A stretch of DNA of 62,994 nt. Origin: Anaerolineales bacterium. Lineage in GTDB: Bacteria; Chloroflexota; Anaerolineae; Promineifilales; Promineifilaceae. The DNA is taken from assembly GCA_011524645.1 (NCBI GenBank), contig WTJY01000163.1, positions 1 to 62,994 of the forward strand, written 5' to 3'. Below the pieces are notes generated by a model. That model saw only the letters and a list, made by a program, of their open reading frames with translations, was not told the origin of the DNA and did no database searches. The translations under genes were made by a program, and so were the position numbers. This document shows, piece after piece, positions 32,348 through 38,882 of the stretch; within the stretch, counting starts at the first letter, position 1, and each line of letters opens with the position of its first letter.

Positions 32348-32386
32348 CAAACAAAAAAACAGGCCATCGGCCTGTTTTTTGTTTGC
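32348..32386. terminator. Bidirectional terminator
   Basis: CAGGCC-ATC-GGCCTG, extended by A7/T6 and GCAAAC/GTTTGC arms, forms a nearly perfect 18-bp stem. It sits between the convergent gene at 31556 and the long SerA at 32410 and can serve both. Confidence 0.88.
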
Positions 32387-32409: not shown

Positions 32410-34005
32410 TTACAACTTCATCAGCTTAACTTCTGTAATCGCATTGGCTTGTGCGAGTGCGTTAAGGACCACGTTGGGGGGTTCTTTGTCGACATTAATA
32501 AAACAGAGCGCTTCCCCGCCCAGTTTTTCACGGCCGAGCCGCCATTCGCCGATATTTACCCCGTAGGCGGCCATTAGCGTCGCTACTTGCCCAATGACGC
32601 CCGGCTTGTCTTCATTGCGCATCACGACCACATGTCCCTGAGGTTTCGCCTCTAGTCGATATTCATCGACTTGAACAATACGTGGCTCTGATCCGCCGAA
32701 AAGAACCCCAGAGACGGTGCGGGAGGCTTCTTCTCCCGCCTGATTTTGCCAATAGGCACGGCAGGTAATGAGGTTAGAGTAGTCGATTTCGGACATGTCA
32801 TACTCTTGCGAAATCGATACGCCTAACTCCTGAGCCAAGATCGGAGCGTTAACCATGTTGATTTGTGCCTCACGCTCGTTTAGCACCCCCTTGAGCACAG
32901 ATGAGGCTAAAAGCTTAATGCTGTTTTCTAGAGCCGCTCCGGTTACTTCGAGCTGGACTTTGTTGATGACACCATCGGCCAAGTTGTGTTGAATCCGGCC
33001 GATCGCTTCCGCTAGATCGATATACGGCCGGATTTGGGTAAAGGTAATGTCCCTTGGGAATGAGACATTGACCGCATGACGAAAATCTTTTTGTTGTAAA
33101 GCATTAACGACCTGCTCAACCAGATCGATCGAGACGGTGTGTAGCGCTTCGCTTGTGTTGGCCCCTAAACGAGGGGTATGTATCACGCTTGGGTGACCGA
33201 TTAGCGGGCTGGTGATCGGAGGCTCTGCGGTATAGGCATCTATACCAACACCGGCCAGTGTTCCATTTTCTAAGGCGGCTGTGACCGCTGCTTCATCTAT
33301 TAATTGACCATGCGCCACATTAATGAGAATCGTTCCCGCGTTCATTTTGGACAATGTTGTTGTGTTGATTAAGTTTTCTGTTTCTGGGGTTGCGCTACAG
33401 TGGAGAGAAATGTAGTTTGCTCGGGTTAATAGATCTTCGAAGTCTACCAATTCGATTCCGAGATCACGGCCGACTCTTTCAGACACATAGGGGTCATAAG
33501 CGATGACTGTCATGTCAAAGGTCTTGGCATATTCAGCGACCAAAGATCCGATCCGGCCGAGGCCGATGATGCCTAGCGTTTTTTCTTTGAGCTGCCTTCC
33601 CACATAAAGATTTCGTTCCCACTGTTTCTGTTGAACCGAGGTGTGTGCCTGCACAAGATGGCGACTTGTGGCTAGCATGAGCGCGATTGTATGTTCGGCC
33701 GTACCTGTGCTGTTGGCATCGGGAATGTTCATTACAATGATCCCTTGTCGTGTGGCCACATGTAAATCGATATTTTCAACGCTAATGCCGGTGCGCCCAA
33801 TCACTTTTAATTTTTGGACTTGCGCCAGAATTTCTGCATCGATTTTTGTTTCACTATCCACAATAAGGGCATCAAACTGTGGTAATTGCTCGCGAAGCTC
33901 CTCCGCTGTCAACTGCGTGCGAACTTCATGGGTGACATCCGCCATCTGATCAAGAAGATCTAGTCCTGCTTGGCCGAGTTGGTCTGTAATTAGAATTTTA
34001 TACAT
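32410..34005 (-). CDS. ACT-bearing SerA paralogue with altered active site (likely regulatory)
   Basis: The 531-residue protein has the full long-form D-3-phosphoglycerate dehydrogenase layout: catalytic/NAD domains (~1-310), an intervening ASB domain (~320-445) and a C-terminal ACT domain (~455-531, VVVMRNEDKPGVIGQVATLM). It aligns without gaps to the short SerA over ~285 residues. However, the substrate Arg50 is Asp (VDSETK), the catalytic Arg232 is His (INVAHG) and the catalytic His279 is Arg (HTPRLGA); Glu261 is kept. I checked all three codons on the DNA. The Rossmann motif GLGRIG is retained. It therefore probably binds NAD and senses serine but does not oxidise phosphoglycerate. It lies at the end of the ser operon, 171 bp after the short form. 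Confidence 0.88.
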   Translation of the reverse strand: MYKILITDQLGQAGLDLLDQMADVTHEVRTQLTAEELREQLPQFDALIVDSETKIDAEILAQVQKLKVIGRTGISVENIDLHVATRQGIIVMNIPDANSTGTAEHTIALMLATSRHLVQAHTSVQQKQWERNLYVGRQLKEKTLGIIGLGRIGSLVAEYAKTFDMTVIAYDPYVSERVGRDLGIELVDFEDLLTRANYISLHCSATPETENLINTTTLSKMNAGTILINVAHGQLIDEAAVTAALENGTLAGVGIDAYTAEPPITSPLIGHPSVIHTPRLGANTSEALHTVSIDLVEQVVNALQQKDFRHAVNVSFPRDITFTQIRPYIDLAEAIGRIQHNLADGVINKVQLEVTGAALENSIKLLASSVLKGVLNEREAQINMVNAPILAQELGVSISQEYDMSEIDYSNLITCRAYWQNQAGEEASRTVSGVLFGGSEPRIVQVDEYRLEAKPQGHVVVMRNEDKPGVIGQVATLMAAYGVNIGEWRLGREKLGGEALCFINVDKEPPNVVLNALAQANAITEVKLMKL

Positions 34006-34142
34006 CTGGTTATTCCTTCCGGTTTTGATGAGGATCGGCCTGCTGTTGTTTTGCGGACCTAGCTGTGTAGCACTGGTTCTGTCTAATCACGAGAATGGGG
34101 CTGGGGGGTAGGGAGAGTAACGAGCGAGATGCTATGATCTAT

Positions 34143-34177
34143 CACTCGTCACTCGCCACTCGTTATTCGTCACTCAC
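34143..34177. repeat. Heptamer tandem repeat (CACTCGT, five units)
   Basis: Five 7-bp units (CACTCGT, CACTCGC, CACTCGT, TATTCGT, CACTCAC) lie between the two serA genes, the last touching the stop codon of the short form. A related set occurs on the other strand near 17151-17187, upstream of the rpmH promoter. Confidence 0.75.
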
Positions 34178-35124
34178 TAAAACGGATTGACTTGGTGTTG
34201 GGCTGGGTTGCCACGTAATACATCGACAACTTGTTGGGCGATTTGCTCACCCACGGCGCGTTGCGCTTCTTTAGAACTCGCACCCAAATGGGGGGTATGG
34301 GTGACATTAGGCAAGCCGATAAGCGGATTGTTTTCGGGTGGTTCGCTGAAATAGACATCAAGCCCTGCACCAGCGATGGTGCCGTTGCTTAAAGCTGCTG
34401 CGAGCGCGTCTTCATCGATTAGCTTCCCGCGAGCGACATTGATCAAAATCGCATTCGATTTCATTTGGGACAATGCTTCTGCGTTGATCATTTTGGTTGT
34501 TTCTGGTGTGACGATGGTGTGGAGCGAAATGTAGTCCGCTTGAGGTAAAAGCTCAGCGAGTTCTACCAATTGGACGTTCATTTCTTGACCGACTTCACTT
34601 GAAACATAAGGGTCGTAAGCGATGACGGTCATGCCGAATGCTTGGGCGCGTTGGGCGACCAAACGGCCGATGTAACCGAAACCGATAATCCCTAGTGTCT
34701 TGCTGTGCAGTTCAACGCCGACAAATTTAGAACGTTCCCATTTTCCGGCCGCCACAGAGCTGTGTGAGATGGCTGTGTATCGGCTAGAGGCGAGCATGAG
34801 AGCCATGGTTTGTTCGGCCGTGGCGATGCTATTGGCGCGGGGGGTGTTCATGACGATCACTTTGTGTTTGGTGGCGGCAGCCAAGTCGATATTGTCAACC
34901 CCGATCCCTGCACGGCCGATCGCTTTGAGTTTTGTGCCGGCCGCGATAATGTCTGCATCCGGCCGAGTGCCGCTACGAATGATTAAGGCATCGTATTCTG
35001 GCATAATGGCGATAAGTTCCTCTTTGTTGAGGCCTGTTTTCATGTCGTAGTGGACATCATCTTGTTGTTCAAGCAAATCGAGCCCAGCTTGGCCCAATTT
35101 GTCTGAAATTAAAACTTTATACAT
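34177..35124 (-). CDS. serA: D-3-phosphoglycerate dehydrogenase, short form
   Basis: The 315-residue enzyme consists only of the catalytic and NAD-binding domains. Active-site residues are complete: Arg50 in IIRSGT, the Rossmann GFGYIG, Arg232 in INVARG, Glu261 in YFSEPP and His279 in HTPHLGAS. It carries out the first step of serine synthesis from 3-phosphoglycerate. It lacks the ASB and ACT domains through which serine feedback-inhibits long forms. Next to it is a long paralogue that has those domains but a damaged active site. It is the third gene of the ser operon, after serB and the aminotransferase. Confidence 0.93.
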   Translation of the reverse strand: MYKVLISDKLGQAGLDLLEQQDDVHYDMKTGLNKEELIAIMPEYDALIIRSGTRPDADIIAAGTKLKAIGRAGIGVDNIDLAAATKHKVIVMNTPRANSIATAEQTMALMLASSRYTAISHSSVAAGKWERSKFVGVELHSKTLGIIGFGYIGRLVAQRAQAFGMTVIAYDPYVSSEVGQEMNVQLVELAELLPQADYISLHTIVTPETTKMINAEALSQMKSNAILINVARGKLIDEDALAAALSNGTIAGAGLDVYFSEPPENNPLIGLPNVTHTPHLGASSKEAQRAVGEQIAQQVVDVLRGNPAQHQVNPF

Positions 35125-35316: not shown

Positions 35317-35347
35317 ATTTTTGCGGTGGCATAGCCACCGCAAAAAT
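35317..35347. repeat. Perfect 14-bp hairpin
   Basis: ATTTTTGCGGTGGC pairs with GCCACCGCAAAAAT around a 3-nt loop. It shares the CGGTGGC/GCCACCG core with the first hairpin of the element at 2774-2979. A shorter stem (CCGCC/GGCGG) lies at 35284-35296. It could terminate or stabilise the aminotransferase transcript. Confidence 0.65.
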
Positions 35348-35425: not shown

Positions 35426-36550
35426 TTAGTATTCGATCCCTTGGGCGGTCAGATACTCATCGACTGTGGCAAACAGCTCTTCCATGTCGGCTAATTGCCA
35501 ATCACCCATGTGGCCGATGCGGAAGGTTTTTTCTTTGAGTTTTCCATAGCCATTGGACAAAATCATCCCTTTGGTCCGTAGAAACTTGTTGAGGTCTGCG
35601 ATGCTGATGCCCAAATCGTTGGCAACTGTGGTCACAGTGGGGGAGGCGTATGCTTTGTCTGCGAACAAACCGAAGCCGCGAGAGAGGGCCCATTCGATGG
35701 TGCGATCACGTAGTGCCATGTGGCGAGCCCAGCGACCTTCCATTGTTTCCGCCATCATTTTATCTAATTGTTTGTTGAGCGCGAAGAGCAAAGAGATCGC
35801 GGGTGTTGCGGGTGTCTGGTCTTTGAGTAAAGATTTCTCCATGGAAAGATAGTCAAAGTAGAAGCCACGATTCGGGATCGTTTTCGCTTTTTCAAAGGCG
35901 CGTTCTGATACGGCCGCGAAAGACAAGCCGGGTGGGAGGGCGAACGCTTTTTGGCTGCCGGTTAAGACAATGTCTAAGTCCCAAGCGTCAAATTCGATTT
36001 CCGCACCGGACATCCCACTGACGGAGTCGATCATAATGGTGATATCTTGGCCACCGGGCGCGTTGCGAATTGCAGCAGCGATTTCTTTAACCGGACTGGT
36101 GACTCCGGTGCTGGTTTCATTGTGAGCGAAGGCGACCGCATCATATTTTCCAGCGGCTGCCGCGAGGTGTTCTGCGACGAGTTCTGGTAAGATCGGTTGA
36201 CCCCACTCTACATCGACACGGTCCGCTTCTTTGCCGTTGGCGATTGAAACAGTGTGCCAACGATCACTAAATGACCCGTTGACGAAGTGGAGGACACGAT
36301 CACGGACACAGTTGCGTACGGCCGCTTCCCACATGCCGGAACCAGATGAGGTAGCGACATAGACGCGAGATTCGGTCCGAAATACTTTGCGTAATTTCGG
36401 TTGAATTTGTCCGTAAAGGGCGATGCACTCTGGCATGCGATGCCCGATCATGGCGGTCGTTTGTGCTTCTAAAATATCCGCACTAACTTCTGTCGGTCCG
36501 GGCAAAAACAGCTTCAAAGGCGTGGTTGAATTTTGATTTGAGTTGCTCAT
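35426..36550 (-). CDS. serC: Class V aminotransferase, probable phosphoserine aminotransferase
   Basis: The 374-residue PLP enzyme has the class V pattern: LFLPGPTEVSADIL at the N-terminus, SSGSGMWEAAVRN, NETSTGV, MIDSVSG and the PLP-binding Lys in TGSQKAFALPPGLS. Its closest appearance is to the serine-glyoxylate/alanine-glyoxylate type, which serves as phosphoserine aminotransferase in several bacteria and archaea lacking classical SerC. The location supports that role: its start lies 68 bp inside serB, and serA genes follow. It would convert 3-phosphohydroxypyruvate to phosphoserine with glutamate. Substrate choice rests on context. Confidence 0.85.
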   Translation of the reverse strand: MSNSNQNSTTPLKLFLPGPTEVSADILEAQTTAMIGHRMPECIALYGQIQPKLRKVFRTESRVYVATSSGSGMWEAAVRNCVRDRVLHFVNGSFSDRWHTVSIANGKEADRVDVEWGQPILPELVAEHLAAAAGKYDAVAFAHNETSTGVTSPVKEIAAAIRNAPGGQDITIMIDSVSGMSGAEIEFDAWDLDIVLTGSQKAFALPPGLSFAAVSERAFEKAKTIPNRGFYFDYLSMEKSLLKDQTPATPAISLLFALNKQLDKMMAETMEGRWARHMALRDRTIEWALSRGFGLFADKAYASPTVTTVANDLGISIADLNKFLRTKGMILSNGYGKLKEKTFRIGHMGDWQLADMEELFATVDEYLTAQGIEY

Positions 36551-37331
36551 TTTGGAAAGTTATATCTCCTTGTTCAATTAAATGAACTGTTTTATTCAAT
36601 AGAGTGGCGTGTGGACTGTTTTCTAATTGGGTAAGACCTGCTGGACCTTGGGCAAGGGCGAGCAGTGGGGCAAGGCTGGGATTGTGTAGGAATACAGGGG
36701 CTTGCTGGAACACTTTGTCTCGCTTGACTACGCCACCGTAGCCGACAAATAGGTCGACTCGTTTGCTTGCCAAGAGATCGCTGCTTCCATCACCGATTAG
36801 CAAAGACCTGCCGGACTGGTCGCCTAATAATTGGTCCACGACTTGGGCTTTGCCATCGGTTGCGGTCAGATTGCCTGCGGTGTATTTTTTGTAGCGGGCG
36901 GACGATGTGTCTTGATCGAGCCACCAATCGCCACTGAGTTGGTCATATTGAACATCGACGGCGCGAATATTTTCGGGCGCAACGCCGAGGGATATGCCAA
37001 ACTCAAGGACCGGCTCGTAGAGCCCGCCACTAATAATATAGACTTTGTGGCCGAGCCACTTAAGAATATCGATCACTTCTTGAGCGTCTTCGACGATATT
37101 TTTTTTATAGCTGTTTTTGATAATTTGGATTTGTTGACGGGTCGGTCGTACCGCCTGCAACCGTTTGCCGTACACATCGGCTAAGTCGATATCTCCGTTC
37201 ATGGCGGCGTTTGTTAGCACTTCGACCCGCCACTTTTTGTTAGCGGATTCAGCTAAAATGTCGATTCCCTCAATTGTGCTGAGTGTAGAGTCACAATCGA
37301 AAAAGATATGTTGGTAGATAGGCCAGCGCAT
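36483..37331 (-). CDS. serB: Phosphoserine phosphatase (HAD family)
   Basis: The 282-residue enzyme has HAD motif I in IFFDCDSTLSTIEGIDILA, close to known phosphoserine phosphatases. It also has motif II in IISGGLYEP, a motif III Lys in TDGKAQVV and motif IV in LIGDGSSDL. It would release serine from phosphoserine. It is the first gene of the operon; its last 68 bp overlap the aminotransferase start. The C-terminal ~70 residues (after VFLHNPSLAP) extend beyond the HAD core and continue through the overlap. The overlap is long, so one of the two borders may be shorter in the cell. Confidence 0.92.
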   Translation of the reverse strand: MRWPIYQHIFFDCDSTLSTIEGIDILAESANKKWRVEVLTNAAMNGDIDLADVYGKRLQAVRPTRQQIQIIKNSYKKNIVEDAQEVIDILKWLGHKVYIISGGLYEPVLEFGISLGVAPENIRAVDVQYDQLSGDWWLDQDTSSARYKKYTAGNLTATDGKAQVVDQLLGDQSGRSLLIGDGSSDLLASKRVDLFVGYGGVVKRDKVFQQAPVFLHNPSLAPLLALAQGPAGLTQLENSPHATLLNKTVHLIEQGDITFQNEQLKSKFNHAFEAVFARTDRS

Positions 37332-37938: not shown

Positions 37939-38739
37939 TTATGTAGTCGCTCGTAGTAAATGTGCACAAATTGCTTCATGGAACCGGCCGTTGCTGGCTA
38001 AACAGTCTCGCTGTTGCCAATGCCAATCCTTGTTGGCAAAGTTACTCACACGGCCGCCTGCTTCATGCAAAATGAGTTGAGCGGCCGCATTGTCCCACGG
38101 TGAGATATCGTAGTTAATATAGCTATCGACTCGGCCGTCTGCGATCCAACAGATCGCTAGGGCAGCGGTGCCGATCGCCCGAATGGTACGTGTTTCATGC
38201 ACCATATGGTTGAGTATTTGCAACGTTTTGGCGCGATTTTCTGGGCTACGTGACCAATCAAGCGTAAAGACTGATTCACTTATTTCATCGACTGGAGATC
38301 GCCTTAGGGTCCGTTCATTACAGACAGCAGGCTTCCCTTTTTGGGCTGAAAACAATTCATCATGGATCGGGTCATAGACCGCTCCTACGTGAACATCTAG
38401 ACTTGAACCGACCTGTTTTGCGGCCGCGATCGATACACAATAATTTGGAATTCCCCGACTATAGTTGCTTGTGCCATCAACCGGATCAATGATCCAAATC
38501 CACTCACCGCTAGACGGCAACATATGGTCCTTTTCTTCCGGTAGAAAACCATGATGTGGATATTTTTCTTGAATCTTTGTGGTGATTAACTTCTGGGCGG
38601 CGAAGTCCGCATCGGTGACGATATCTCGAAACCCTTTTTTATGTAGGGTACGTGGCTCTTTCGCTTTAGCTTGGATGAGTTCTCCTGCGGCTTTGGCGAG
38701 CTCACAAGTAAAAAGATATAAGTGATTAAGGTCGGTCAT
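37939..38739 (-). CDS. Inositol monophosphatase family protein
   Basis: I chose the ATG giving MTDLNHLYLF (266 residues). Family motifs are complete: FLPEEKDHM (metal Glu), WIIDPVDGTSNYSRG (DPxDGT) and ISPWDNAAAQLILHEAGG (WDxAA). This metal-dependent phosphatase family includes inositol-1-phosphatase, CysQ and histidinol-phosphatase. There is no clear neighbour that fixes the substrate; the ser operon lies upstream on the same strand across 600 bp. The stop is at 37939-37941. Confidence 0.92.
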   Translation of the reverse strand: MTDLNHLYLFTCELAKAAGELIQAKAKEPRTLHKKGFRDIVTDADFAAQKLITTKIQEKYPHHGFLPEEKDHMLPSSGEWIWIIDPVDGTSNYSRGIPNYCVSIAAAKQVGSSLDVHVGAVYDPIHDELFSAQKGKPAVCNERTLRRSPVDEISESVFTLDWSRSPENRAKTLQILNHMVHETRTIRAIGTAALAICWIADGRVDSYINYDISPWDNAAAQLILHEAGGRVSNFANKDWHWQQRDCLASNGRFHEAICAHLLRATT

Positions 38740-38882
38740 AATTGAATCGCCGATTGGCGCAGATCGAGGGTACATTACCTGTTGTGGTGCGTCCTCAAAT
38801 TGTTAAGCAAAAATAAAGCCCTACCCTGATGGGGCAGAGCCTGTCATAGTTGCGTAAATTATTAAGGATCTTAATGGAAATT

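Follow-up and report, generated by a model that had tools for sequence, protein, structure and literature searches.

A tandem SerA pair in an Anaerolineales bacterium suggests a phosphoglycerate dehydrogenase split between a catalytic subunit and a putative regulatory pseudoenzyme

Phosphoglycerate dehydrogenase (PGDH, SerA) is a textbook allosteric enzyme. In Mycobacterium tuberculosis SerA, a type I PGDH, a single chain both catalyses the reaction and senses serine. The 62,994-nucleotide stretch of DNA analysed here (the window), from an Anaerolineales bacterium, carries two adjacent, co-directional SerA genes that appear to divide these tasks: the product of one (SHORT) has catalytic domains only, and the product of the other (LONG) has regulatory domains and a degraded active site. 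A previous sequence-only reading proposed that the two proteins form a hetero-oligomer in which LONG senses serine and restrains SHORT. The question is whether LONG is a maintained partner of SHORT, acts on its own, or is simply decaying.

SHORT and LONG are 55% identical over 313 ungapped residues, slightly more than the approximately 285 residues first claimed. The roles of their residues can be assigned by homology to the M. tuberculosis enzyme, whose numbering is one higher than that used here. In that enzyme, R51 and, from the neighbouring subunit, R132' contact the substrate phosphate, R233 binds the carboxylate, and H280 serves in proton transfer (PMC6300728). The corresponding residues are R50, R131', R232 and H279, and R232 belongs to the Arg/Glu/His triad of the family (PMC6303947). 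SHORT holds R50, W129, R131, R232, E261 and H279. LONG keeps W129 and R131 but, among R50, R232, E261 and H279, only E261 is left. Pfam detects the PGDH_inter (ASB) and ACT domains in LONG and not in SHORT. The coordinates of both genes, the residues at 50, 232 and 279 and the domain content given in the sequence-only reading are borne out.

LONG has the domain content of a type I PGDH (substrate, NAD, ASB and ACT, in this order) but not its key residues, since D50, H232 and R279 replace R50, R232 and H279. It matches TIGR01327, the NCBIfam PGDH profile, with 547 bits over profile positions 1-525, and its AlphaFold2 model (mean pLDDT 86.6) has M. tuberculosis PGDH (3ddn, 3dc2 and 1ygy) as its best PDB matches, with a Foldseek E value of 6.9e-51 against 3ddn. 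Thus, LONG shares the four-domain order and the fold of this enzyme, and both serine ligands of its ACT domain, D463 and N481, are kept as D466 and N484. SHORT (414.7 bits, profile 1-311) has the sequence features of a type IIIH PGDH, i.e., the Arg/Glu/His triad, R50, the partner-donated Arg and no regulatory domains, and it resembles the enzymes of Pyrococcus (1wwk) and Sulfolobus (2ekl) in its two catalytic domains. Known type III PGDHs are described as unregulated dimers, whereas SHORT co-occurs with a probably dead type I paralogue. Assignment of SHORT as an ordinary hydroxyacid dehydrogenase was rejected, as PGDH is its top profile hit and its gene is linked to that of an aminotransferase.

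Because terminator-like palindromes bracket the pair (Table 1), SHORT and LONG may form a transcript of their own, apart from the aminotransferase gene. The upstream palindrome has 13-bp arms and is terminator-like in both directions. It has 14 further near copies in the genome (1-2 mismatches), and a reversed control pattern had no near copies there. A terminator scan reported no terminator-like site in the spacer between SHORT and LONG. In many genomes, LONG is linked to SerB and SHORT to the aminotransferase. LONG also adjoins rnpA, yidC and jag, a typical origin-region cluster, in many relatives (L084, L074, L078, L082 and others), although not in the window genome.

Table 1. Features of the SHORT-LONG locus, in positions of the window
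Feature	Coordinates	Strand	Basis
Bidirectional terminator-like stem-loop, directly downstream of LONG	32354..32380		terminator scan
LONG, type I PGDH architecture, 531 aa, degraded active site, putative regulatory pseudoenzyme	32410..34005	-	ORF, profiles, AF2 model
LONG ACT domain, PF01842, residues 458-519; serine-ligand positions N464, D466 and N484 kept	32449..32634	-	Pfam
LONG ASB / PGDH intervening domain, PF19304 (PGDH_inter), residues 325-446	32668..33033	-	Pfam
LONG residues 1-313, degraded catalytic half	33067..34005	-
LONG changed codon 279	33169-33171	-
LONG changed codon 232	33310-33312	-
LONG retained codon R131	33613-33615	-
LONG retained codon W129	33619-33621	-
LONG changed codon 50	33856-33858	-
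SHORT/LONG spacer, 171 nt	34006..34176	-
SHORT, putative PGDH catalytic subunit, 315 aa (substrate- and NAD-binding domains only, type IIIH-like)	34177..35124	-	ORF, Pfam, TIGR01327
Perfect terminator-like palindrome TTTTTGCGGTGGC-NNN-GCCACCGCAAAAA, between aminotransferase and SHORT	35318..35346
Class V aminotransferase (Aminotran_5; PSAT-like candidate), upstream neighbour; SerA-linked in relatives	35426..36550	-
SerB-like HAD-IB phosphatase; LONG-linked in relatives	36483..37331	-
Inositol-monophosphatase-family protein, recurrent operon neighbour	37939..38775	-	Pfam and relatives' loci

In the window LONG, 12 of the 63 catalytic-part columns with 97% or higher conservation in intact relatives have changed (50, 72, 75, 77, 94, 101, 159, 222, 232, 253, 257 and 279). 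The claim that this damage is confined to substrate and catalytic positions holds for most of the 12, which line the substrate site, but not for R159Y, K222N and A253V, which are not obviously active-site changes. The damage exceeds chance, since intact SerAs of the same family reach at most 4 such changes in a leave-one-out count. The regulatory part has lost 7 of 42 conserved columns, mostly by conservative changes, and it has diverged too (branch 0.57; catalytic part, 0.63). The corresponding losses, catalytic versus regulatory, are 20/63 versus 4/42 in a congener (G004) and 6/63 versus 1/42 in a third genome of the family (G010). The terminal branch of the window LONG is long (0.74, median 0.14).

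We read SerA residue by residue in 108 class-level genomes with a full-length protein. LONG lacks R50, R232 or H279 in 35 of them, and all 35 encode SHORT. The search found 34 of these SHORT genes; the 35th (G196, L267:1647-2363) is frameshifted, with residues 2-69 read in one frame and 73-314 in another, which would reflect an assembly error or a recent loss. LONG is intact in the other 73 genomes, 15 with SHORT and 58 without a detected SHORT, where SHORT presence was called by score in incomplete assemblies. Four genomes with intact LONG (G184, G185, G204 and G344) have a SHORT-like protein only 44-50% identical, which may be another enzyme. The conserved pairing and conserved loss sought in relatives turned out to be more extensive than expected, and a search for LONG-only genomes with the same losses found none: all 58 keep R50, R232 and H279, a congener (G003) included. 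The association of LONG loss with SHORT is strong by a Fisher test that ignores phylogeny (p 3e-15). When the active-site columns are left out of the tree, LONG loss needs at least four changes, always with SHORT, which rules out a single origin for all degenerate LONGs. The four independent contrasts all agree, with p=0.125 on their own, and the phylogenetically corrected support for the association is limited.

One such pair is co-inherited across three GTDB families (f21, f47 and f57), in which the SHORT and LONG clades are mirrored. In a distant genus (g130; G210 and G265), a SerB-SHORT-LONG tandem arose separately; here SHORT and LONG share 73-76% identity, and residue 50 of LONG is Y or H. 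The tandem arrangement is rare (the window, G210 and G265), and most genomes have the two genes at separate places. One genome (G246, L096:5011-8265) has two full-length type I SerA genes in tandem with both active sites intact, a possible starting state of such a split.

Within the GTDB-level family of the window genome (G000), 14 genomes have both LONG and SHORT, and LONG is degraded in G000, G004 and G010 and intact in the others. The nearest degenerate relative, G004, has D50, S232 and S279, plus H129 and S131; G010 has H232. The congener G003 has one intact LONG and no detected SHORT, and its gene occupies the site syntenic to SHORT in G001 and G004. The trees, partly quick ones with long branches, differ in detail. 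Regulatory-domain and full-length trees group the LONGs of G000, G003 and G004, while the catalytic tree groups G003 LONG with SHORT and joins the G000 and G004 LONGs, two long branches, near the family base. A tree that unites G000 and G004 LONG with SHORT and the intact G003 protein is not rejected (p-AU 0.60) and scores slightly higher. In the simplest history, a G003-like gene was duplicated, one copy was truncated and the other lost catalysis.

Other forms of SerA occur in the class. LONG was ruled out as the only other SerA of the window genome: a third, intact SerA (L002:604-2358, G000:C82), not of type I, is fused to a C-terminal SbnI/SerK-like free-serine-kinase domain, and this protein confounds any growth-based readout of SHORT and LONG. 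This fusion occurs widely across the class and adjoins SHORT in G010 and G013. Its SerA part, intact in G000, is degenerate in G003, G010 and G013. In addition, G021 encodes a 910-aa triple fusion (L254:2803-5535) of PLP-dependent ammonia-lyase-like, SerA-like and SbnI-like domains, in which the SerA-like active site is apparently degenerate; similar frames of 910-938 aa are present in other genomes of the family.

Residues kept and lost in degenerate LONGs were scored in columns with a conservation of at least 97% across 74 intact LONGs. Among degenerate lineages, five have changed R232, four D77, and three each R50, A72 and G75. The replacements differ by lineage (D, Y or H at 50; H, S, F, V or Y at 232; R or S at 279). 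E261, D256, D466, N484, G469, G472, R492 and the Rossmann glycines are changed in no lineage as a whole; individually, G370 and G385 of the f21 clade carry V261. The Rossmann glycines (G145/G148) and the ACT ligands D466 and N484 are retained in 35/35 degenerate LONGs, all of them free of stops over about 500 codons. W129 and R131, which extend into the active site of the neighbouring subunit, are retained in 34/35 and lost only in G004. As the largest clade mostly retains R50, E261 and H279, and R232 is the only one of these four residues to be consistently lost there, residual or altered activity of LONG is possible.

In one form or another, LONG is likely to be a maintained pseudoenzyme. 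This part of the sequence-only reading is well supported by the 35 genomes, the repeated losses, the intact frames and the preserved ACT ligands. Because the same split arose at least four times in relatives, LONG is probably a maintained regulatory partner and not a decaying gene. It has prozyme-like properties, being a paralogue with lost catalytic residues that always co-occurs with an active-type paralogue. For the nature of the partnership, we lean modestly towards a hetero-oligomer in which SHORT would catalyse and LONG would complete the SHORT site in trans and carry the serine switch. SHORT would be the catalytic subunit of a split PGDH, and LONG a dead or crippled paralogue kept for its ASB/ACT serine-sensing end and its dimer surface. 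The two would pair via their nucleotide-binding domains, with LONG donating W129 and R131 to complete the active site of SHORT; the site of LONG itself lacks R50 for the phosphate, R232 for the carboxylate and H279 for proton transfer. The ACT/ASB domains of LONG would link two such pairs into an S-L/L-S tetramer, and serine at the ACT interface would move LONG and thereby shut down SHORT. The architecture, the losses, the recurrent co-occurrence, the kept trans residues and ACT ligands and the linkage to serine genes are visible in the sequences, from which we infer the loss of activity, the hetero-complex and the direction of control. It is equally conceivable that SHORT requires LONG for its activity, with serine-free LONG activating as opposed to serine-bound LONG restraining. 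Against the model stand the loss of W129 and R131 in G004, the separation of the two genes in most genomes, the 15 genomes in which both are intact and SHORT needs no dead partner, the limited phylogenetically corrected support, the possible residual activity of LONG in the largest clade and the divergence of the regulatory part in the window LONG.

Among the sequence evidence, retention of W129 and R131 speaks most strongly for a LONG that faces SHORT, because a dead homodimer would have no use for these residues. It bears directly on an alternative that we regard as unlikely, though not negligible: homo-oligomers of LONG sense serine and act elsewhere, e.g., on SerB, with no stable SHORT complex, and SHORT homodimers are unregulated. 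The separate LONG/SerB and SHORT/aminotransferase linkages would fit this arrangement, as would the activity of type III PGDHs as homodimers (PMC6300728, PMC6303947) and the LONG of G004, which cannot complete the SHORT site through W129 and R131. However, so general a retention of the donated residues, together with a SHORT-LONG tandem that arose at least twice, argues against LONG acting apart. Somewhat less probable again is a new catalytic function, with the LONG pocket rebuilt for another hydroxy acid and NAD binding unchanged. The Rossmann motif, E261 and D256 do remain in nearly all lineages, and in the f21/f47/f57 clade residues 8, 51, 72, 77, 232 and 253 change together while R50 and H279 stay. 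Yet the lineage-specific residues at 50, 232 and 279 look like loss and not like one new pocket; R232 is part of the Arg/Glu/His triad (PMC6303947), G000 and G004 have lost the proton-transferring histidine itself, and the ACT ligands are invariant.

Two explanations remain. That LONG is a redundant copy decaying slowly once SHORT took over catalysis would agree with its long terminal branch and with the finding of LONG loss only where SHORT exists, but the long open frames, the unchanged ACT ligands and the inheritance of a SerB-linked pair across three families make this improbable. It is harder still to credit that SHORT and LONG are two independent, ordinary PGDHs and that LONG works despite its substitutions; its profile score exceeds the equivalog cut-off, but the window protein retains a single one of the four key catalytic residues.

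To our knowledge, there is no earlier case of PGDH catalysis and serine sensing residing on different paralogous chains, and open-access full text, which misses most subscription papers, yielded no report of a PGDH pseudoenzyme. Regulation of a live enzyme by a dead paralogue is itself of a known kind, represented by prozyme and DHS and, in function, by HisZ. HisZ is HisRS-like and not a close paralogue of HisG, whereas LONG is a close paralogue of SHORT. The HisGS-HisZ ATP phosphoribosyltransferase likewise has a short catalytic subunit and a separate regulator, through which end-product inhibition acts, at the first step of its pathway (PMC9734150). In trypanosomatids, the AdoMetDC prozyme and a DHS paralogue are dead paralogues that heteromerise with the active enzyme and control it (PMC5201418 and PMC3663545). 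These systems are eukaryotic, have no ACT-type ligand sensor and have proven complexes, whereas that of SHORT with LONG is predicted.

These data also point to a flaw in annotation. At its cut-off of 454, the NCBIfam PGDH equivalog accepts the probably dead LONGs (547, 535 and 498 bits) and misses the active-looking SHORTs (415 and 404 bits). The repeated origins, from a recent tandem with 76% identity to an old pair shared by three families, offer a natural series for the evolution of regulatory pseudoenzymes. Overall, we see about an even chance that, in this one class, the serine gateway enzyme has undergone repeated splits into a type III subunit for catalysis and a dead type I subunit, which supplies two residues to the active site of its partner and itself holds the serine switch. 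Such a pair would be a bacterial PGDH 'prozyme' whose members standard annotation labels in reverse.
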